A DNA stretch of 64,000 nt, taken from positions 310,001-374,000 of the forward strand of contig NZ_SODI01000001.1 of the NCBI RefSeq assembly GCF_004365915.1. The letters are read 5' to 3'. This document shows, one piece after another, positions 14,406 through 26,962 of the stretch (position 1 is its first letter; the number at the start of each line of letters is the position of its first letter). The position numbers and the translations under genes are program-made. Under the pieces are notes generated by a model. That model was not told where the DNA came from. It did not search any database and saw only the letters and a program-made list of their open reading frames with translations. The DNA is from Cryobacterium psychrophilum (GTDB lineage Bacteria > Actinomycetota > Actinomycetes > Actinomycetales > Microbacteriaceae).

Positions 14406-15332
14406 TTACGGCAGATCGACGGTGACGATGATCTTGCCGCGGGTGTGCCCGACCATGTTGAGCCGGTAGGCATCCGCTGCCTCAGCGAGCGGAAAGACGC
14501 GGGCAACGTCAATGGTGAACGCGTTCTCGTCGACGAGGTCCGCGAGGCGTTGCAGATCGGCGCCGGAGGGGTCAACCCACATCCACGTTCCGCCGTGCGC
14601 CTCGGCGTCACCGTCGGCGACGGATGCGTGTCGACCGCCGTCGGCGAGCACGGCGAGGGTGGTCGTGAGCACGCCGCCCACGAAGTCGGCGACGACGTCA
14701 ACGCCGGCCGGGGCCAGTGCTCGCACGAGTTCGGTGAGGCCGTCGCCGTACTCGATGGGTTCGGCGCCGAGCGCACGAAGGTAGTCGTGGTTGGCCTGCG
14801 ACGCGGTGGCCAGTACGCGCGCCCCGCGGGCGACAGCGAGCTGGATCGCGAGGGACCCGACTCCCCCGGCGCCACCGTGGATCAGCACGGTGTCCCCGTC
14901 AGCGACGCCCAGACGGGTGAGCACCTGAAACGCGGTCAGGCCAGCCAGCGGCAACCCGGCGGACTGCTCCCAGGTGAGGGACCGAGGCTTCCGGGCGACG
15001 AGCCGCTCGGGAAGAGCGATGAATTCCGCGAAACTGCCGGCCTGGACGACGTCCTTCCGGCCGTTGGAGATGACCTCGTCGCCAACGGCGAAGTGCGGCG
15101 CATCGACACCGACGGCTTCGACGACACCGGCCACGTCCCAGCCGGGGACGGCGGGGAAACTGATGTCGAGCATCGGATCGAGATACCCGGCCATGACCTT
15201 CCAATCCACCGGATTGACTGCGGCCGCCTTCACCCGAATCAGGACCGTTCCCGGTCCGACCTTGGGCAGGGGCTGCTCGGTCAACTCGAGAACATCGGGG
15301 CTGCCATATTCGCTGTACGTTATTGCTTGCAT
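14406..15332 (-). CDS. NADP-dependent quinone-oxidoreductase-like MDR protein
   Basis: A zinc-free medium-chain dehydrogenase/reductase (308 residues). It has a GroES-like N-terminal domain (about residues 1-110) and a Rossmann domain with nucleotide motif GGAGGVGSLAIQ, then the typical C-terminal GKIIVTVD. Such enzymes reduce quinones or enones using NADPH. It is upstream of, and probably co-transcribed with, the aldo/keto reductase gene, suggesting a shared carbonyl/quinone detoxification role (inference). Confidence 0.9.
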   Translation of the reverse strand: MQAITYSEYGSPDVLELTEQPLPKVGPGTVLIRVKAAAVNPVDWKVMAGYLDPMLDISFPAVPGWDVAGVVEAVGVDAPHFAVGDEVISNGRKDVVQAGSFAEFIALPERLVARKPRSLTWEQSAGLPLAGLTAFQVLTRLGVADGDTVLIHGGAGGVGSLAIQLAVARGARVLATASQANHDYLRALGAEPIEYGDGLTELVRALAPAGVDVVADFVGGVLTTTLAVLADGGRHASVADGDAEAHGGTWMWVDPSGADLQRLADLVDENAFTIDVARVFPLAEAADAYRLNMVGHTRGKIIVTVDLP

Positions 15333-15417
15333 TGTGGGTGGAACGTGGCCTGGCGGCAGCGTATTCCGGCGGTCAGCGTCCTCTCAGCCGACGTTCGCTC
15401 CGTCCCGGGTCCGAACG

Positions 15418-17652
15418 CTAGCGAAACTCCGGCGTCAGCGGTTCTTCCGACACGAGGTAGAGACGCTGCGTGGCCCGGGTCATGGCGACGTACAGCGCGC
15501 CGGCACCCCGTTCCGATACCGCGATGACGGACGCGGGTTCCACGACGATGACGGCGTCGAACTCGAGTCCCTTGGCGTCCTGGGGGGTGAGCAGGGCAAT
15601 GTCCCGAGTCAGCCCCAACGGCCCACGCCCAACGAGCGGGCCGAACTCCGCCGTCAGGGCCGCATCCAACGCCGTGATCTGCGCGTCAACGGCAATAACG
15701 GCAAGGGTCCCTTCGTGCTCGAGGCGCCGATCACGACGCACGGCCTCCGCAACATCCGTGACGTATTCCACCGGCCACAGGCTCGCCCGAACGGTGCGCG
15801 AGGGCGTGATGTGCAGGCCGTGCGCAAGCGCCACGCGTTCGGCGACCTCAGCGATCTGACTCGGTGTGCGGTAGTTCACCGTGAGTTCCTCCAACCGCCA
15901 CCGGCCCTCCTCCAGCGATCCCTGCAGCACGGGCTGGAGCGCGTCCTTCCAGCTGGCGGATGCGGCGGCTGACGCCGCCTGGGCGATGTCGCCCACGATC
16001 GTGAACGAGCGCCGCGGACCGCGGCGCAGCAGCAGCCGCCACTGCATCGGCGACAGCTCCTGGGCTTCGTCAACAACGACGTGGCCGTACGTCCAGGTGC
16101 GATCACGACCGGCGCGTTCCGCGGTCGTCGCGCGATCGCCCAACTCGGCAAAGCTCTCCGCGAGTTTCTTCGCGTTGACCAGACCCTTGACCTCCATGTT
16201 TTCTATGGCCGATTCCGCGTTCTCAATGTCGCGCTTGCGCTGTTCCTTGGCGGCCCGTTTCTGCGCCTGATCGACAACGTTGTATTCGCCAAGCAGTTCC
16301 GCGGCCTCGTCGAGCAGGGGAACGTCGGAGATCGTGAGTTCAGCGTCGCGTGAACGCCGAAGGAGCGCCCGCCGTGCATCCGACCACCCGGGAGTGAGCT
16401 CGGCGAGCCACTGCGGGCGCGCGAATATGTCCTGCACAAGCTTCTGCGGGGTGAGGGGCAGCCAGGCGGTGTTCAACGCGACCCTGACGTCGTCGGCCAG
16501 GCGCAGATCTTCCCGCAGCATGGGAAGATCGGTGTCGTCCATTGACCGCCCCTGCTCCTTGAGCTGGGCCAGCCACTGTTTCGCGAGCGCACCGAGCGCT
16601 ATCTTCACGAAGGTGACCCGCGCCTCGTTGTGCGGTTTGCCACCGGATTGTGCCCGGGCGATGGCGTCGCGGAAGAGCTGCGGGTGCACCGTGAGGCGAT
16701 CGCCGTTCACGACGAGGGTGAGGGGTTGGGCCGGCACCCGCTGACGGGAGCGAACAGCGCGCGCCATGACATCCGCCATGAAGGTCTGGCCCTTGAGCTC
16801 GGCGACCGCCGGGATGTCCTCCCGAGTCGCTTCCACCCCCGAGAAGAGTTGGCCCACCGAGGCGAGCACGACACCGGTCTCACCCAGGGACGGCAGAACG
16901 GCTTCGATGTACTGCAGGAACGACCGCGACGGACCCACAATGAGCACGCCGGAATCCCGGAGACGGTCGCGGTGCGTGTAGAGCAGGTAGGCCGCACGGT
17001 GCAGGGCGACCGCGGTTTTTCCTGTTCCCGGCCCACCCTGCACCACCAGCACGCCGGGGAGGTCAGAGCGAATGATCTTGTCCTGCTCGGCCTGGATGGT
17101 GGACACGATGTCGGTCATGTGCCCCGTGCGCTGGGCAGTGAGGGCGGCAAGCAGCGCTCCCTCACCCTGGTGCAGGGTAGCGCCGGCGTCGTCGAGCAGC
17201 GTGGCGTCAAGAATCTCGTCTTCGATACGAACGATGTTGCGTCCGCTGGACAGCAGGTGCCGCCGGGACCGGGCTCCGAGGGGGGTGGCCGCGGTCGCCT
17301 GGTAGAAGGCGCTCGCCTGGGGAACGCGCCAGTCGAGCAGGATCGGGTGCAGTTGCTCGTCGCGGAGGCCGACGCGTCCGATGTAGCGAAAAACGGGCTC
17401 CCCGGTTGTTTCATCGGCTGCTGTTTCCAACCGTCCGAACGCCAACCGATCATCAACCTCGCGCAGCTGCATGATTCTGTCTTCGTAGAGCCTCGCGAAG
17501 TTGTCCCGCTCAGACCGCGCCTGGTGATTGCCACCCACGTCGAGTCTCCGCACCGCCGTCAGCTGCTGCTCGGCCTCCCGTTGCAGCGCATCCAACCGAG
17601 CGTAGAGCGTGGTGACGTAGTCCTGTTCACGCGCAAGCTCTTGATCGATCAC
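15418..17652 (-). CDS. helD: HelD-type RNA polymerase recycling ATPase
   Basis: A UvrD/Rep-like SF1 ATPase of 744 residues. HelD proteins bind stalled RNA polymerase and release nucleic acid and sigma factor. It shows an N-terminal coiled-coil arm (about residues 1-60), Walker A GGPGTGKT (about 206-213), DEAQ Walker B in VVVDEAQELSPMQWR, and the C-terminal motif YVAMTRATQRLYLV. Start is GTG 17652 with GGGGAG upstream. The related rifamycin-resistance protein HelR has similar architecture, but I see no rifamycin-associated palindrome upstream, so HelD is the safer call. It lies downstream of the jet operon with a 109-base gap. Confidence 0.85.
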   Translation of the reverse strand: MIDQELAREQDYVTTLYARLDALQREAEQQLTAVRRLDVGGNHQARSERDNFARLYEDRIMQLREVDDRLAFGRLETAADETTGEPVFRYIGRVGLRDEQLHPILLDWRVPQASAFYQATAATPLGARSRRHLLSSGRNIVRIEDEILDATLLDDAGATLHQGEGALLAALTAQRTGHMTDIVSTIQAEQDKIIRSDLPGVLVVQGGPGTGKTAVALHRAAYLLYTHRDRLRDSGVLIVGPSRSFLQYIEAVLPSLGETGVVLASVGQLFSGVEATREDIPAVAELKGQTFMADVMARAVRSRQRVPAQPLTLVVNGDRLTVHPQLFRDAIARAQSGGKPHNEARVTFVKIALGALAKQWLAQLKEQGRSMDDTDLPMLREDLRLADDVRVALNTAWLPLTPQKLVQDIFARPQWLAELTPGWSDARRALLRRSRDAELTISDVPLLDEAAELLGEYNVVDQAQKRAAKEQRKRDIENAESAIENMEVKGLVNAKKLAESFAELGDRATTAERAGRDRTWTYGHVVVDEAQELSPMQWRLLLRRGPRRSFTIVGDIAQAASAAASASWKDALQPVLQGSLEEGRWRLEELTVNYRTPSQIAEVAERVALAHGLHITPSRTVRASLWPVEYVTDVAEAVRRDRRLEHEGTLAVIAVDAQITALDAALTAEFGPLVGRGPLGLTRDIALLTPQDAKGLEFDAVIVVEPASVIAVSERGAGALYVAMTRATQRLYLVSEEPLTPEFR

Positions 17653-17761
17653 TCAAACTCCCCTAAACCCAAAGCTCCAGTTTAGTCGCGGTCGACCGGG
17701 TGCCTGCCCGCCACAGGGGCCAGCCGTTGTGCTGCAAGAGAAAGCCCCGGAGGCACGTGCC

Positions 17762-18769
17762 CTACAGGTCGGCGTAGTGGATGGCCGCGACGTCGGGGTG
17801 CGCCCGCAGCCGACTCTTGAGGGCGTTCTCCCCGTACGTCGTGAAGATCGGGTTCTCGGGGTCAACGGTGATGCCGGGCGCGTGCAGGGTGTCCGGCAAA
17901 TCCAACAGCGGAATCGTGGCGTCAAGGGCCGGCCCGAAAAAGAACGGGATCGAGATGCGGTCCTGCCCGATCAACGGGGAGATGACGCGGTGCACGGTGG
18001 CCTTCAGGTAGCCGTCGGTTGCCACCTCCAGCAGTTCTCCGATGTTGACCACGAAGGCACCGTCGAGCGGTGGCGCATCGATCCAGTCGCCGTCCTTCTC
18101 CACCTGCAGGCCGCTCTTGCCCGGCTCCACGAAGAGGAGCGTCAGCACGCCGGAGTCCTTGTGCGCCCCGACGCCCTGCTGCGGGGTGGGGTCGGACTTG
18201 CCCGGGTAGCGCACGATCTTGATCAGGGTGAAGGGTTTGCCGGCGAAAGCGTCGTCGAAGACATGCTCATCGGCGCCGAGGGAGAGCGCCCACGCCTGCA
18301 TGAGACGAAGCGCGACCGCGTTCAGCGCCTCGCACCATTGGGCCATGACCTCCTGCAGCTCCGGCAGGGCGACGGGCCACTGGTTGGGGCCCTCCAGCCG
18401 CATGAAATCGCGGGTGTCGGCCGTGCGCGGCACGGTCTCACGTTCCGGGCCGATGTCGATCTGTTCCCGCCAGTCGACGATGCCCTTCGTGAGCTCGCCG
18501 CCTACCCGCGTGTAGCCGCGAAAGTGGGGACTCTGCAGGTTCTCAATGGCCATCTTGTCGGCTTCGGGGAGCGCAAAGAAGGCGCGTGCGCAACCCAGGA
18601 CACGTTCGATGAGGCCGGCCGGAACCCCGTGCCCGGTCAGGTAGAAGAAGCCGAAATTGTGGGTGGCTTCGCGCAGTTCCACTCGGAACGCCTCGGCGTC
18701 CGCGTCCCCTCCGTTGAGTCGGGAGAGGTCGAGGACGGGAAGGGAAACGGATGGTGCGGCGCCTCTCAT
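17762..18769 (-). CDS. 2-oxoglutarate/Fe(II) oxygenase, isopenicillin N synthase-like
   Basis: A 335-residue non-haem iron oxygenase. The DIOX_N region (about residues 10-120) precedes the jelly-roll core. Metal ligands H203 and D205 (GAHKDSG) and H260 (TVHRV), and the 2-oxoglutarate-binding R271 in RIS, are all present, so the enzyme should be active. Its ATG overlaps the jetC stop by four bases (ATGA), so it is translationally coupled to the SMC-like operon and occupies the position where jetD normally sits. Substrate is unknown; most relatives act on small molecules, some on amino acids. Confidence 0.88.
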   Translation of the reverse strand: MRGAAPSVSLPVLDLSRLNGGDADAEAFRVELREATHNFGFFYLTGHGVPAGLIERVLGCARAFFALPEADKMAIENLQSPHFRGYTRVGGELTKGIVDWREQIDIGPERETVPRTADTRDFMRLEGPNQWPVALPELQEVMAQWCEALNAVALRLMQAWALSLGADEHVFDDAFAGKPFTLIKIVRYPGKSDPTPQQGVGAHKDSGVLTLLFVEPGKSGLQVEKDGDWIDAPPLDGAFVVNIGELLEVATDGYLKATVHRVISPLIGQDRISIPFFFGPALDATIPLLDLPDTLHAPGITVDPENPIFTTYGENALKSRLRAHPDVAAIHYADL

Positions 18770-21700
18770 GCGTCTATCATTGCACTCTCCAGAACGGCCG
18801 GCGCCACGGCTGGCACGGTGGAGACCAGCGGGATGATGTAGGAGTAACCGGTGGCGTTGTTCTTCGTCATCGACAGCACGAGTTCCATGTGCGGCTCAAG
18901 GGCCGTCACCTTGTCGAGTGGGGCTCCCACAATGAGTTGGAACCCGAGACCCTTCCAGGCCGCAACGGCCCGACCGGCGAACTCCGAGTCAGACTTCACG
19001 AAGCCCTCATCGAGGAACACCGGGGCGAAGCGCGGTCGGGTTCGGCTCTCGTCCCCCAGCTGGAACCGCAGCGCGGCGCCGACAACAAAGGCGACGAGCT
19101 CTTGCGACTCTCCGCCGCTCTTACCGCCGAGGGACGAGTAGGTGCTCACGTCGACCCCGTCGGGGGTGGTGCGCACGGCGGTGATCTCCACGTGCTTGCG
19201 CACATCGAGCAGCAGATCGCGCGAGGATTCCTGGCGCGATTCCCCGTCAGGGCGACGAATCAGGTTCATGAAGGCCTGCAACCGCGTGAAGCGGCTCTCG
19301 GTCTGCTCCTCGGTGAACGCTTCCGTGGCGCCCGACGACAGCGCCTTCAGCTCCTTTTGGAAGGCGGCAGCATCCTCGGAGTGCAACCGTCGCAGCGAAA
19401 TCTTCAGCCGATCCCGTCCGGCGCCGAAGGGAAGTGTCGTCAGGATCTCGTTGATCGGGCGGAGTCGGTCTTCGATCTCCTCGATGGAACTCGAGAATGC
19501 TCCGGCGAGCGGCACGAGGTCCTGCCCGCTCCACGCCGCGAGTCGTCGTTTCCATTCCTGGCGTCGCTCATGCAGTCCGAGCGTGTACACGGCATCGAGA
19601 ATGTCCCGGTAGGCCGTGAACGATTCCATGGACACGCCGATGTTCGGGTCGGGCCAGCGGCTTTGGAAGGTCTCGAAGATGCGCATCAGGGAGTCCCGCG
19701 CGCGGAGGGCGTTGCCGCGGTCCTGCGCGGACTGCGCGATGAGTCCGTCGCGCAACCGTTTCACTCCCGCCTCGTACTGGGTCAGGTCGGTCTGGTCGGT
19801 TACGAGGGCGAACTGCGCGTCGAGGTGGGTGGCGTGTTCCGGCGCGAGGGTCACGGACGCGGTGCGTTCGATCCGATCGAGGGCGTCACTGAGGGTGTCC
19901 TGGGCGTCGACGATTCGCGCCTGCTCTGTTGCGAGCTGCTCGGTCGTGCGCTCCGTGGCATGCTTGAGCTTCTGCACTCCGTCGAGCTCGGTCGCGAGGC
20001 GTTCCTCCTCGTCTTTCAGGGCCAGGAGCACGTCGCTCGCCCCGAGCACCCGCTCATATTCGGCGGTTTTCTCGGTGATGCGCGCCTCTGCGCCCGCGGC
20101 GTCGATCGTCGACCAGACGGTGTCGACGATGACCTGCTGCGCGACGGTGTGTGCGCGCAGTTCGGTGATGCTGTTGCCCCGTTCTGTCGCTTCGCCGGCC
20201 AGCCGGGTGGCGGTGGCTCGACGCTCGGCTAGTTCCGTCTCGATGTCGTCGAGCCGGGTGCGGTTGGAGAATCCGATGATGGATTTCTGGTCCCGGTTCC
20301 ACCCGTGCGCTCCTCGGCCGCCGTTGCGGGTCTGGCCGTTGCGGGTGACCCGCGCCCCGTCGCCGGGCAGGTCTGCCGCGCCCTCGACGCAGCGGGCGTC
20401 GAGGGCCTCGGCCTGAACGCGCGCCCTGACCCAGCCGCTGAACGGCGAGCCCTTGTGCACGAGCTTGCCGGAGACGAATCGCACGTCACCGTCCGCGGTC
20501 GTGAAGTCTTCGAGCGTGACGCCTTCGAAATGGATGCGAACGGGGAGGTGCAGCGGATCGATGGCTTCGCTCAGCGCCCGCAGGCGGGTCGCATCCACCA
20601 GCATCACCCGGATGATGGGGGCAAGGGTAACCTCGGCCGCGTGCCGCCACGCTTCCTCGGCCGGTGCCAGGTCGATGAGTTCCGCCACGAAGGGCAGGTC
20701 CTCGATCGGGATACCGCTCGCCTCGGCGATCATGACGCGGGCGTTGTGCAGGTGCTGCGGTACGAGGCTCGCTCGCCCGGTGAGAAAGGCGCGCTCCTGC
20801 GTGAGTTCCCGAATCTGGGCCTCCACCGGATACGACGTCTTGTGCAGCAGGTCGCGTTGTTCGTCGAGGTCACGCTCACGCTTGGCGCTCTGCGCGAGAA
20901 AGGTCTGGGCCGCGGCCTCGGCACCCCGCAGGTCATCGAGGGAGCGGATGTCGAGCGACAGCGCTCGCACGCGTTCGTCGAACCGGGCGCGTTCGCCCGC
21001 CACATCGTCGCTCTTGTCGCGAAGTCGCGCCTGTTCGTTCTGCAGGCTGACGAGCGCGTCACCGCCGTTGTCGCGCTGCCGGTGCTGAATTTCGCCGACC
21101 CGGGTCTTCAGGTCGGTCTCGCTGTCTCGGCTGCGCGTGAAGGCGGCGAGGTTGTCCCGTCGCTTCGCGCGGTTGGCGTCGGCGGCGAGGTCGAGCAGGC
21201 TGCGCTCGGTCTGCAGCTTCCAGAGCACGAACGGCGTGTCGCCGTCGCGATGCACGCCGAAGGTGTCGATGAGGTCGGCCTTGGCCGATGCCGCTTCGAA
21301 GTCACGGTACAGGTCGGGCAGGCGCTCGAGAACCTTGGCCTTCTGCGCCTCGGTGACCATGGCCCCGTAGGAACGTTCCAGGTCTTCGAAGTGATCGACG
21401 GCCTTGTCTGCGGCGGCGAACGTTGCCGGCTGCTCGAGCACCATCGACTTGTACAGCCCGTCGACGCTCTGGACCTGTTGTCCGGCCTGGATCCGGGCGA
21501 GCAGCCGCAGGGCTTTTCCTCCCTCGCCGTTGGCCCCGATGCCCAGGCGGGTGAACAGCGTCTGCGCGAAGGCGGCGTAGGTGTCGAAAACGTCCATCTC
21601 CGGGAACCTGGTCTTCAGCGCCCGCTTGTCGAATCGGGATTCGGCGATCTCGGCGAGGTCACGCAGGTCGAGGTGTCCGTCGACGGTTGCCATCTTCATC

Positions 21701-22176
21701 GAGATGTCAGCGAATCGTGTCGCCGCCCGCGGGAGGAAGTAGGCGCGCAGCACGGTGAAGCGCCGCTGGTTGTCGTCGATGAACGTCATGGCCACGGCGC
21801 CCCACGTTGACGAGTCGGCGCCGCGCAAGACCTGGTCGTGCAGTTGTCCGGTGCCCGTCTCGCGGGTGGAGTCGGTCTTGCCCTTGAGGTACGTCATGAG
21901 GTTGCGCTGGTCGGCGCTTCGCGCGCGGCCGGATCCGGCGTCATTGGACGCACCGTTGAAGGGGGTGTCCGACGGCATCATCAGGGCGAGGTACGCGTCA
22001 AGCAGGCTGCTCTTGCCCGTGCCGGATGCACCGGATACGAGTGTGGCGGTTGGCGCGAAGGCCACGTCGTGGTGGCCGTGGAAACCACCCCAGTTCACCA
22101 TTTGAAAGGATTCGGCGCGCCACTGCGTGGTTCCTTCGGTGGATCCGTCGATGTAGAACAGTGCGGAATCGCTCAT
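18766..22176 (-). CDS. jetC: JetC: SMC-like ATPase of Wadjet/MukBEF-type complex
   Basis: The 1136-residue ATPase is the motor of a plasmid-restricting or chromosome-organising SMC complex. Walker A is GASGTGKS (about residues 49-56), followed by two long coiled-coil arms around a hinge-like region (roughly 520-680). The ABC signature SGGES lies at about 1020 and Walker B VFLDEG at about 1053-1058. This layout is that of JetC/MukB-like proteins. The ATG overlaps the jetB stop by four bases and its stop overlaps the oxygenase start by four. All ATPase motifs look intact. Confidence 0.93.
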
Positions 22177-22895
22177 GAGATGCTCTCCAGTTCGCGCTCG
22201 CCGATGGTGTGCGTTTCGGCGGTTTCGGGCGACTGTTGCTCGTCATTCTGATTGAGCAGCCACTCCAGAAGTTCCGCGAGGCGCTCGACCGGCAGCAGCA
22301 CCTCGATCACCGCGGAGATTCTGAACCGATCGGGGTCGCTCGTCTTCAGCAGCACCCGCGCCTTGGCAAGGCTGTCCACGGCCGCGGTGGCCCGGCGGGC
22401 GTCGCCGGAGAGGTCCGTGGCGTTCTCCGGCCGGAAGCGCGCCACATTGTCGACGAGGTTATCGCGGTCCACGATGACGATGTCCTGCCCGTTGGCGCGT
22501 TCGCTGCGAAAACGCTGGCGCAGCAGCACGAGCAGGATCGTCTCTTCACGCGAGTACGACACGTCGTGCAGCAGCGTAGGGAATCGGTCTCCGCCCTCGG
22601 CGACGGCCTGGCGTTTGAATGCGACCTCATAGTGCAGGTCGATGTGCAGGTCGAGGAACACGTCGTTGAGCCGAGATTTGATCAGGCCCTGCGCGGCGAG
22701 CAGGGTGCGCCATTCCACGGGTTGGAGCGCCGCAGAGATGTAACGCTGCTTCATGAGCAGCACCAGGGTCTTGCGCTGTGCGATGGTGAGGCCACCCTCA
22801 TCCCCCTCAAACAACGAGAAGTTCTCCGTCGAATTCTCGAGGGGGTGCTCGGTGTCTGCGCCGCCGTCGGCGTCGTCGGTCCAGGTGTCAGTCAT
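22173..22895 (-). CDS. jetB: JetB: DUF4194 (MukE/MksE-like) subunit
   Basis: A 240-residue winged-helix subunit of the DUF4194 family, which binds the kleisin in Wadjet/MukBEF-like complexes. The core (about residues 40-215) contains the helical segment [20 protein letters not shown] and the conserved [13 protein letters not shown]. The N-terminal 35 residues are acidic and probably disordered. It overlaps jetA by eight bases and jetC by four, so the three subunits are almost certainly co-expressed. Confidence 0.9.
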
Positions 22896-24402
22896 GATCA
22901 GGTCCTGAGTTCAGGGCGGCCAGTGCCGCCGTGTCGTGCTCGTTCAAAACAATTCGGGGCACGGCGAACGACCGCACCGTGCCGTCGGGGCGTACCGTCT
23001 CGAAGGCTTCACTGACCTTCGAGTGGTGCACCGTGCCCAGCTGGGTCGCCATGTGCAGCAGCCCCAGAATTTCGACGGGGCGGCGCAGGCCGGCATCCAG
23101 GCCATTGAAGGCGTCACCGATGGAGGCACCGTTCCCGGCATGGAGCGCCGCGGAGGACGCGGCAACAATCGCGAGACGCATGTCGTCCAGGAGCGGTCCG
23201 CCCTGGCCACGCAGCGCACCGAGGCTGGCCGGCTCGGGGGCGTCCCCCGACACGTCCTCCAGCTCGGGCGGCGCAAGGTGCGCTCCCGGGTCGTAGAAAC
23301 GTTCGCGGAGGTGCTCCACATCGAGCGTTCCCGGCATCAGCTCGGCGGTGACGGTCGACCGGGGTCCGGCCGTCTCCATCCAGGTGGCCAGCTCCTTGTT
23401 GATCTCCCGCAGCAGGCGCTCAAGCTCCCGGTCCTTGACGACGTCATGGTTGACGATGTGCTCGCGCAAAGTCGTGGTGAGACCGTTTCGCTGCGTGAGC
23501 ACATCGTCGATTCCCTTACGGATGAGGCTCACGGTGCCCATGAAACTGCGCCGGTCGTCGGCGCTCAGCTCCAGGGCGAAGGGGTGCAGCAGAATCGTTT
23601 CGAGGTCGTTCTTCAGTTCCTGCATGAGGGCGTCGTTGCGCAGCAGGGTGAAGGCCCCCTCGAAGGCGCGGCCCTCCGCGGTCGACGTCATGAGGGCATC
23701 CGTTTTCGTGAGGTAGTCGTCGAGAACCTCACTGATCGGGCGTTCCTCAGCGCGGAAATCGTTCACGATCTGCCGGTGCATGCCAGCGACGGATTCTTCG
23801 ACCCGTTTGAAGTCGCTCGGAAGTTGGGTGATGAGGTTGACCAGGTTGGCGTAGCCCTCGTGCATTTGCTCCGAGGACGTTTCCGCTATTTCACCGCCGG
23901 CCGCGAGACGATCTCGTTCGCTCTGTTTTTCGGCGATCTCCTGGTCGAGGCGACGGATGCGCTGCTCACGATCCGGGTTGGCCTGTGTGGCGCGGTGACG
24001 CACGGCGTCGACGATCGTCGTCAGACGTGACTCGCTGATGAGCGCGCGGTCCCGGGAGAGGCTCGCGACCAGCAGCAGCGCCTCGAGGGCGTGCGACGTC
24101 AGCGAGTACTGTTCCTCGCCGTTGTCTCCCGTCTCGCGGTAGAGCCATTGGTCGTTCATCCACTGCACGCAGAGGGCACGACCGTTCTTGCCCGGCACCT
24201 CGCTGCCCACCGAGCGCAGGTCGGCCAGGTACGCATCCACCTGGGTGTGCAGCAGGTCGGCCTGCACGCTGCGCCGGTCACGACTGAACGACGATTTGAA
24301 GACGGCGAGCACGAAGGGCGCCCACTTGCGATCCAGGAGCCGAAGGGTCGGTTTGTCGAACGCCTCACGCACCCGCGCCAGTTCGGCCGCAATATCGCTC
24401 AC
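22888..24402 (-). CDS. jetA: JetA: DUF3375 kleisin (MukF/MksF-like) subunit
   Basis: First gene of the operon, a 504-residue DUF3375 protein. In Wadjet this is the kleisin that bridges the ATPase heads. The N-terminal winged-helix region ([19 protein letters not shown]) is followed by a coiled coil (about residues 140-190) and the C-terminal winged helix. Start is GTG 24402 with AAGGGA upstream. It is divergent from the alpha/beta hydrolase across 99 bases, which should hold the operon promoter. No jetD is found on either side. Confidence 0.92.
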
Positions 24403-24501
24403 TCAGTTATTCCCTTCAAGACCTCATCAACCGTAGTCGCCCGTAGGCCACACCTGGACTGCGGTCGGTTTCTCGTGCGGGTCATGGTCAAATAGATTCT
24501 G

Positions 24502-25284
24502 ATGCACACGCCCCCCGCTCCCCCGCCCAAGATCGTTCACGCCACCGACGGCACACAACTGGCCACCTATGAATTCGGTGATCCGGATGCCCCCACCGTC
24601 TTTCTCCTGCACGGTTTCGCTTCCAGCGCGCTCGCCAACTGGCACCACACCGGTTGGGTGCGGGACCTGGTTCGTGCGGGCTACCACCTCATCGCCCTCG
24701 ACCAGCGAGGTCACGGGGCCAGCGACAAGCCGCTCTCGGCCGCGAGTTTCGCCATGGGCACCCTGGTCGACGATGTGCTTCGCGTGCTCGACGCCTACCT
24801 GATCAACGAGGTCGGCTTCGTCGGGTACTCCCTCGGCGCCCGAGTCGGCTGGCGGGCGGCCCATGACCACCCGGACCGGATCAGCCGAGCGGTCCTCGGC
24901 GGCATCCCCGATGGGGATCCGCTGAAGCGCTTCGACATTGCGGATGCCCGCGCCCACATCGAGCACGGGGTGGACGTGACCGATCGCCTGACCGGTGCGT
25001 TCCTGAAGATGGCGAAGGCGGTTCCGGGGAACAACCTCACATCACTCGTGGCCCTCGTGGAGGGAATGCGCGATGGCGAACAGCCGAGCGCGGCGAATGC
25101 TCCGCTCCAGCCGGTCATGTTCGCGACGGGAAGTGACGACCACATCCTCGAGGCGTCGCGCGCGCTCGCCGCGGTGACCCCGCAGGGCACATTTTTTGAG
25201 ATCCCGGGCCGCAACCATTTCAACGCGCCCACGTCCCGCGACTTCCGCGACGCGGCCCGTTCTTTTCTGGCGCACGCCCTGTGA
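24502..25284 (+). CDS. Alpha/beta hydrolase
   Basis: A 260-residue alpha/beta-hydrolase fold protein. The nucleophile elbow is VGYSLGA, the acid is probably in TGSDDHI, and the histidine is in GRNHFNAP; the oxyanion HGF motif is in FLLHGFAS. Substrate is unknown (ester, lactone or haloacid-type substrates are common in this group). It is divergent from jetA and followed 33 bases later by a small membrane protein gene with its own ribosome site. Confidence 0.9.
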   Translation: MHTPPAPPPKIVHATDGTQLATYEFGDPDAPTVFLLHGFASSALANWHHTGWVRDLVRAGYHLIALDQRGHGASDKPLSAASFAMGTLVDDVLRVLDAYLINEVGFVGYSLGARVGWRAAHDHPDRISRAVLGGIPDGDPLKRFDIADARAHIEHGVDVTDRLTGAFLKMAKAVPGNNLTSLVALVEGMRDGEQPSAANAPLQPVMFATGSDDHILEASRALAAVTPQGTFFEIPGRNHFNAPTSRDFRDAARSFLAHAL

Positions 25285-25317
25285 GACTGTGACGAACGTT
25301 TCTTGAAGGAGCAACAT

Positions 25318-25626
25318 ATGAATGACCCCCGCGCGAAGATGGACGGCAACAACCTTCTGGGCATGGGCGCCCCACGCCCGGACTGGTCCAAGACCCCGGG
25401 CCGTGTGCCGGGCTTCTGGCTGACGCTCGCCGGTTTCATCCTGGCCATCGTCTTCCCCCTGCCGTCGCTCATCGTCGCGGTCATCGGCCTCGCCTACGCG
25501 ACACAGGCGTTTCGGGTGATTCCCGCCAAGGCCAGAGGACGCGGCCTGGTGATCGTGTCGTTCGTGCTCGTGGGGCTTTCCGTCGCCCTCGCCCTGACCC
25601 GCACCATCCTCTCCCTGCTCCCGTAG
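25318..25626 (+). CDS. Small two-helix membrane protein
   Basis: A 102-residue protein with a polar N-terminus (about 35 residues) and two hydrophobic segments (about 38-62 and 78-100), resembling DUF4190-type proteins. ATG 25318 follows GAAGGAG. Function unknown. It is downstream of the alpha/beta hydrolase on the same strand and may be co-transcribed with it. Confidence 0.7.
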   Translation: MNDPRAKMDGNNLLGMGAPRPDWSKTPGRVPGFWLTLAGFILAIVFPLPSLIVAVIGLAYATQAFRVIPAKARGRGLVIVSFVLVGLSVALALTRTILSLLP

Positions 25627-25753
25627 CTCACCCCGGACGGTGGCCACCGGTCGGGGCCGGCATCGCGGCGGACGGGCACGGAGGCCTCCGCGCATGTGTC
25701 GAATTTTTACGGGCGTGTTCGCGAAAGGGCACGCGCTGCCACAGGCTGTGGTC

Positions 25754-26962
25754 ATGTCAGTCTTCCCCGTAGCGCCCCTCGAAAGTATTCGGGCAGAGCG
25801 CAGCAGCATCAAGTGGACTCGGTTTCCGGCCGACGTACTTCCCTTGTTTGTCGCCGAGATGGACTACACCCTCGCCCCCGAGATCGTTCAGACGCTCGTG
25901 GAGCGCGTGCAGGCATCCGATACCGGCTACCTCGACGGCCCCGGCCCCCTGGCTCCCGCCTTCGCGGACTTCGCCCTCACCCGCTGGGGTTGGCGGGTGA
26001 ACCCTGTTCATGTGCACCTCGCCACCGATGTGAGCGTCGGGATCGTCGAGGCGCTGCGTCTCGTGGTGCCGCGCGGTGGGCGCATCTCGATCACGCCGCC
26101 CGTGTACCCGCCCTTCTACGAGCTGGTCGAAGAGGTCGCCGCCGCCGCCGTCGAGACGCTGCTTCTCGAGCGCGCCGGTACCTGGTCGCTCGACCTCGAC
26201 GCCCTCGAGCGCACGTTCGCCAGCGGAATTGACGCGTTCCTGCTCTGCAATCCCCACAACCCGCACGGCATCGTCTTCGACCGGGAAACCCTCGAGGAGC
26301 TCGCTCGTCTGGCCGCGACGTACGACGTCTTCGTCGTCTCCGATGAGATTCACGCCCCGCTCACCCACCACGGCGTCACGTTCACACCCTTCGCCCCCCT
26401 CGCCGCGGCGGCCGGCGCGCGCGCCGTCACCGTGACGTCCGCGAGCAAGGGCTGGAATGTGGCCGGCGTGAAGTGCGCGCTCATCATTGCGGCGAACGAC
26501 GACACCAACGAGCTGCTGAACCGCCTTCCCGAGGAGGTGGCCTGTCGCACCAGTATCCTCGGGCTGCACGCCAATATCGCAGCCTTTGCCTGTAGCGACT
26601 GGCTCGACACTGCCATCACCCAAATTGTCGAAAACGATCGCTTGCTCGCGACCCTACTCCGCGAGCAGCTGCCCGCCGTGATCTATCACCGGCCCCGCGC
26701 CAGCTACCTGGCCTGGCTCGATCTTCGCCACCTGGGTCTCGGCGATTCTCCCTACCGCCGCATTCTCGACGACGCGAGGGTCGCCCTGAACGACGGCGAG
26801 TGTTTCGGCCCCGGCGGCCGTGGGTTCGCCAGGCTCAACCTCGCGTGCTCCCCCGATACCCTGCGCGAGGCCGTGGCGCGCATCGCCGCCCTCGTGGCGC
26901 GTGCGCCAGGCGCCCCCGCGCACGGTCCCGATCACGGTCCCGCGCTGACGAGTGCGGCCTGA
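25754..26962 (+). CDS. MalY/PatB-type PLP C-S lyase (aminotransferase class I/II)
   Basis: A 402-residue fold-type I PLP enzyme of the MalY/PatB group, which cleaves cystathionine or cysteine conjugates to release a thiol. The PLP lysine is in SASKGWNV, the cofactor-binding region contains NPHNPHG and SDEIHAPL, and the substrate-binding arginine lies near FARLNLA. ATG 25754 begins where family similarity starts; no good ribosome site is seen, so the start is uncertain. The O-acetylhomoserine sulfhydrylase gene follows closely, suggesting a methionine/cysteine metabolism pair. Confidence 0.87.
   Translation: MSVFPVAPLESIRAERSSIKWTRFPADVLPLFVAEMDYTLAPEIVQTLVERVQASDTGYLDGPGPLAPAFADFALTRWGWRVNPVHVHLATDVSVGIVEALRLVVPRGGRISITPPVYPPFYELVEEVAAAAVETLLLERAGTWSLDLDALERTFASGIDAFLLCNPHNPHGIVFDRETLEELARLAATYDVFVVSDEIHAPLTHHGVTFTPFAPLAAAAGARAVTVTSASKGWNVAGVKCALIIAANDDTNELLNRLPEEVACRTSILGLHANIAAFACSDWLDTAITQIVENDRLLATLLREQLPAVIYHRPRASYLAWLDLRHLGLGDSPYRRILDDARVALNDGECFGPGGRGFARLNLACSPDTLREAVARIAALVARAPGAPAHGPDHGPALTSAA

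Follow-up and report, generated by a model that had tools for sequence, protein, structure and literature searches.

We analysed a window of 64,000 nucleotides (C1:310001-374000) from the Cryobacterium psychrophilum genome, a 3.68-Mb assembly in two contigs. Three overlapping genes on its minus strand form a jetABC operon. The first, jetA (22888..24402; 504 aa), encodes a kleisin-type subunit matching DUF3375 (PF11855, 358 bits) and the PADLOC model JetA1 (PDLC00464, 612 bits); jetB (22173..22895; 240 aa) encodes a KITE-type subunit matching DUF4194 (PF13835, 115 bits) and PADLOC JetB1 (354 bits); and jetC (18766..22176; 1136 aa) encodes an SMC-type ATPase with SbcC_Walker_B and AAA_29 matches and a PADLOC JetC1 score of 1325 bits (PDLC00517). 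Behind jetC, on the same strand, lies a 2-oxoglutarate/Fe(II) (2OG/Fe(II)) oxygenase resembling isopenicillin N synthase (17762..18769; 335 aa; DIOX_N and 2OG-FeII_Oxy in Pfam). The overlaps are 8 bp between jetA and jetB, 4 bp between jetB and jetC, and 4 bp between jetC and the oxygenase gene. Open reading frame coordinates, Pfam and PADLOC confirm the names, positions and 8- and 4-base overlaps that the first-pass annotation had given to the three jet genes. Pfam also assigned the genes on either side: downstream of the oxygenase, a UvrD-family helicase (15418..17652, minus strand; 744 aa), HelD-like by eye, and, divergent from jetA, an alpha/beta hydrolase (24502..25284, plus strand). Among 33 Cryobacterium jet loci, a UvrD-family helicase flanks seven, on either side and with the window included, within the stretches fetched, and an alpha/beta hydrolase flanks six. 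An Rfam scan of window positions 15000-26000 returned no match.

Pfam, PADLOC and PDB sequence searches agreed on the JetA, JetB and JetC families. The closest PDB chains by sequence belong to JetABC complexes of Wadjet, with JetC matching 8dk2 and 8as8 best, and the window's jetA is the sole DUF3375 match in a profile search of the genome. JetC has a Walker A motif (GASGTGKS, from residue 49), a signature motif (SGGES, 1020) and a Walker B motif (VFLDEG, 1053), so all three elements described earlier as intact were found. We take these motifs, and the metal-binding residues of the oxygenase, to have their customary roles. Type I Wadjet, JetABCD, was reportedly described by Doron and colleagues in 2018. 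A review (PMC10586767) presents JetABC as a DNA-shape-sensing, ATP-driven motor and JetD as the cutter, and names Wadjet structures for PA14 and GF4-3. Compared with type I JetABCD (PDB 8dk1-8dk3, 8as8/8q72), the window operon has the same three protein families, the same gene order and intact SMC ATPase motifs; it differs in that its DUF3375 JetA, DUF4194 JetB and SMC-ATPase JetC are not accompanied by a TOPRIM nuclease JetD in the operon, that no intact JetD occurs in the C. psychrophilum genome, and that it is near-core and mainly vertically inherited rather than patchy. An SMC-kleisin-KITE operon without a nuclease gene is also the arrangement of an MksBEF-like condensin.

The absence of jetD from the neighbourhood, as first annotated, is borne out: none is adjacent, and genome-wide JetD_C matches consist of two distant fragments only, C1:2980290-2980490, with one internal stop, and C1:2986420-2986590. 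These lie about 2.6 Mb from jetABC and 6 kb from each other, and match adjoining residues 304-363 and 363-413 of the JetD of another Cryobacterium genome, G239. Within the region that spans both (L004:10291-16591), a long open reading frame, RHS/YD-repeat-like as judged by eye, separates them. Of five JetD proteins compared, the fragments scored best against that of G239, which belongs to a distant Wadjet lineage (68.6 and 43.5 bits); scores against Glaciihabitans JetD were 40.8 and 22.7 bits. Because the fragments are split and nearer the G239 protein, they look like the ruins of a different Wadjet in C. psychrophilum and not a distant partner. The suggestion that a remote JetD serves this operon is thus unsupported for C. 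psychrophilum, and we rejected a JetD acting from afar on the pieces near 2.98 Mb.

The JetD-less operon is widespread in the genus. Close jetC copies, 62-81% identical to that of the window, occur in 53 of 57 Cryobacterium species, C. psychrophilum included, and JetD_C lies within 10 kb of none of the 53 copies. By comparison, all 21 distant jetC copies (23-48% identity, one of them a 33% fragment), from 19 genomes, have JetD_C within 10 kb; these counts leave out two weak jetC rows (G289 and G258:C39), and a copy split into several pieces was counted once. JetABCD is patchy in the genus (19/57 genomes). Of the 53 genomes with a close jetC, 32 gave no JetD_C match anywhere, so a remote JetD is unsupported there as well; the other 21 have a match somewhere. 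The genus holds 26 JetD places, 21 of them beside their own distant jetC, and JetD pieces away from any jetC occur in G282, G266, G267 and C. psychrophilum. Of 33 JetC copies from Cryobacterium, 30 have all three ATPase motifs; the remaining three, from congeners (L112, L113 and L114, in G287, G270 and G256), are interrupted, which may reflect sequencing error. Given these three and the four congeners without a close copy, jetABC is not essential everywhere and may be dispensable in some Cryobacterium species.

A JetD too diverged for Pfam was sought with a home-made profile built from five JetD proteins. It recovered the JetD loci, the two L004 fragments and three weak hits of 17-21 bits (L054, L058 and L059), which fall at the jetC end, where JetD gene calls are over-long; when applied to another 20 loci at class level, its single hit was L138, a JetD-bearing control. 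We rejected the idea that divergence hides the gene. Nor did another fourth gene emerge. The gene after jetC changes from species to species within Cryobacterium, and JetD, at five loci, is the only gene in that position common to more than two genera. The remaining genes shared there across genera come as locus pairs (L121/L137, L119/L126, L060/L132, and two genes in L070/L071), and an alternative replacement was rejected because none is found in more than two genera. In the L070/L071 pair, a Glaciihabitans JetABCD and a distant-lineage Cryobacterium JetABCD each have related versions of one gene pair behind them, which suggests a common defence insertion site.

A further neighbour was seen within the genus. 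In 24 of the 53 Cryobacterium genomes, counting the better k4 matches only, jetABC has a same-strand neighbour, k4, which encodes a helical protein of about 185-195 aa (L095:11399-11956, L084:5039-5620). The gene precedes jetA in one subclade and follows jetC in others, and further genomes have it elsewhere; the C. psychrophilum copy (G000:C1:2185241-2185780) is away from jetABC, and the jet loci searched outside Cryobacterium all lack it. k4 has no Pfam or NCBIfam match over cut-off, and UniRef calls some relatives 'Asparagine synthase'. Its AlphaFold model (pLDDT 84.7) gave no Foldseek match at E <= 0.001, and VIA-align returned generic long-helix rows only.

JetA-family genes without JetD extend well beyond Cryobacterium. 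Among 249 Microbacteriaceae genomes, DUF3375 occurs in 59 and JetD_C in 27. In a sample of 394 Actinomycetes genomes (JetA at least 290 bits, JetD at least 100 bits, lower rows dropped), JetD_C is present within 12 kb of 27 of 66 DUF3375 matches and absent from the other 39, a count in which jetB and jetC were checked at 19 loci and contig ends were unchecked. Of the 39 genomes that carry such a JetD-less gene, 32 yielded no JetD_C of at least 100 bits anywhere. In the 19 JetD-less loci fetched, jetC follows jetA in 18, the exception being L135 (G522), where no jetC was found after jetA, and the JetD profile hit none. One genus contains both states in closely similar operons: L054 (G118, without JetD) and L055 (G173, with JetD) are 95%, 92% and 93% identical in JetA, JetB and JetC, and by these identities the pair is a case of recent JetD loss or gain. 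Among 14 control genomes, Corynebacterium glutamicum alone had DUF3375 and JetD_C matches.

In Cryobacterium the operon is under purifying selection, with dN/dS of 0.06-0.21 for JetA, JetB and JetC (eight species pairs for each of three genes; dS >1 for the window pair), and its inheritance is mainly, not strictly, vertical. Jet distances correlate with those of eight core genes across 36 of the 53 close-jetC genomes (Mantel r 0.698, reached by 0 of 999 permutations), and the jet tree shares 17 of 33 splits with the core tree, whereas none of 200 random trees shared more than 3. Transfer occurs too, as indicated by the 7 of 23 well-supported jet splits that conflict with strong core splits and by the lack of correlation between JetC and ScpA identities to C. 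psychrophilum, the one reference used (rho -0.08, 51 genomes). On a tree of 86 JetA rows, 64 without and 22 with adjacent JetD, the JetD label changes a minimum of 6 times (shuffled mean about 20); this tree omits duplicate loci and unfetched JetA matches (G176, G167 and the partial or weak G147, G212, G132, G072 and G078). The window JetA falls in a 50-row clade of several genera, 49 of them JetD-less, in what is a quick tree with a long-branch warning. Just one member, from Glaciihabitans tibetensis, has JetD beside it; this species has the same type of JetABC as the window (JetC 71% identity). The row branching next to the clade also has JetD.

The related-genome survey thus found jetD missing beside every close copy, as in the window, and it did not uphold the accompanying proposal that the oxygenase had taken the place of JetD. 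That proposal, which would make the oxygenase a novel effector of JetABC, one that might modify DNA or proteins at looped plasmids, draws on the 4-bp overlap with jetC, seen in both C. psychrophilum and G292, and on the putative metal-binding residues: the catalytic set first reported is there in sequence, as HKD (203-205), H260 and R-x-S (271-273). Set against this, the gene adjoins jetC in only three of 57 Cryobacterium species, the third being G271, where a 34-bp gap replaces the overlap. Some oxygenase match occurs in 41 of the 57 genomes, and 25 genomes besides C. psychrophilum carry a full-length orthologue at 81% identity or more (leaving out G259, with two short pieces). In 23 of these 25, all except G292 and G271, it is on another contig, far from jetC, or in a genome lacking the close jetC. 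Twelve fetched congener loci (81-85% identity) contain no jet genes; twelve window genes besides the oxygenase were tested, and none was present. Cryobacterium sp. MLB-32 (G278), which groups with the three species in both core and jet trees, keeps jetABC and has no oxygenase match; its assembly is in 800 contigs, yet the slot after jetC is contiguous and without the gene. This oxygenase was found in none of 40 Microbacteriaceae jet loci scanned, and among all collected loci L098, L099 and the twelve fetched for the oxygenase are the only ones to carry it, so that no conserved linkage to jetABC emerges. The family is large (7308 matches among 7999 candidates scored). The best PDB matches are 9ovh, named as an ethylene/succinate-forming enzyme, and 6jyv, and the nearest named relatives belong to Cryobacterium sp. 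CG_9.6 and C. roopkundense. The DIOX_N and 2OG-FeII_Oxy domains are those of isopenicillin N synthase-like enzymes generally, and only the location beside jetC is unusual. We therefore rejected a coupled effector on linkage and regard it as very improbable: the enzyme probably performs ordinary small-molecule chemistry and is probably an incidental neighbour outside the complex that just landed there in a three-species lineage.

Three other explanations concern JetABC itself. A nuclease encoded elsewhere, either the JetD of another operon or an unrelated enzyme, might dock on JetB or JetA, and JetABC would then still restrict plasmids. JetB has a conserved N-terminal stretch of 10 residues, an LFEGDEG-type motif of the form SLFEGDEG(G/R)L, which is kept in the JetD-less window clade and absent from four g36/G178 rows. 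If this motif docks JetD, its retention would mean that a partner may remain; it could not be placed on the published IFDR motif. The 21 close-jetC genomes with a JetD_C match somewhere, and the four genomes with JetD pieces not beside jetC, point the same way. Against a borrowed nuclease stand the 32 genomes without any JetD_C match, the 21 of 26 JetD places that adjoin a distant jetC of their own, the broken state of the C. psychrophilum JetD and the lack of any other gene after jetC conserved in more than two genera, and we consider it unlikely. We think it more doubtful still that the complex is a plasmid defence that dispenses with cutting and instead compacts, silences or mis-segregates small circular DNA. 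Its PADLOC-supported membership of the Wadjet family would fit, as would the restriction of extrachromosomal DNA by human Smc5/6 mentioned in PMC10586767; near-core, mainly vertical inheritance is unlike that of the patchy JetABCD of the genus. Decay after nuclease loss might explain the interrupted jetC in L112, L113 and L114, but the low dN/dS, the intact motifs in nearly all copies and the retention of a close jetC in most species make a relic hardly credible.

We favour, with moderate confidence, a Wadjet-derived, MksBEF-like SMC complex that would not cut DNA. This was the first of the alternatives offered by the first-pass annotation, and it agrees with a missing JetD and an intact motor under purifying selection. 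JetABC would be a complete SMC-kleisin-KITE motor of Wadjet descent operating without the JetD nuclease: it would load on DNA and extrude loops by ATP hydrolysis, as in known Wadjet, and, having no cutter, would structure or tidy DNA rather than linearise plasmids. It might help to organise or segregate the chromosome alongside Smc-ScpAB, a role proposed for Pseudomonas MksBEF. ScpA (PF02616) was found in the genome, with a ScpB-like open reading frame beside it by eye; Smc-ScpAB is therefore probably present, and the data are most simply read as a second SMC complex, free of nuclease, with a part in chromosome structure or segregation.

Known relatives frame this reading. Pseudomonas aeruginosa MksBEF is described as an SMC-kleisin-KITE complex that arose from JetABCD when JetD was lost and that occurs together with Smc (PMC10586767, PMC7485682). 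It and the Cryobacterium complex are both nuclease-free. A chromosomal role is reported for MksBEF and would be a prediction for the Cryobacterium complex, which matches the JetA1 (DUF3375-type), JetB1 and JetC1 models and is related to a Glaciihabitans system that has JetD. Some Pseudomonas strains carry mksFEBG operons with a nuclease, according to another report (PMC10123090). The C. glutamicum MksBEFG system is an actinobacterial relative, but it has MksG/JetD; it is reported to be polar and directed at plasmids, not chromosomal (PMC7083940, PMC10123090). Since MksBEFG is reportedly placed off the chromosome (PMC7083940), 'chromosomal' is not a safe default.

More tentatively, and with confidence a little short of even, we propose that JetD has been lost repeatedly from Wadjet motors in Actinomycetes and that the motors persisted as nuclease-free loop extruders. 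The Cryobacterium motor would be a near-core second condensin, mainly chromosomally inherited, while in those genomes JetABCD of other lineages would come and go as defence, in an independent actinobacterial parallel to the proposed origin of MksBEF. JetD loss as that origin is an idea already present in PMC10586767; a literature search for JetD-less Wadjet and Cryobacterium Wadjet found no report of the JetD-less Cryobacterium clade.

As JetA-family genes without JetD are common, annotators should not infer plasmid defence from such a gene alone. Whether JetABC motors uncoupled from JetD act on chromosomes, and whether MukBEF and MksBEF came from defence, are unsettled questions according to PMC10586767. 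A single genus with both JetD-less JetABC (53 of 57 species) and JetABCD makes the question of chromosome versus defence testable in related culturable strains.
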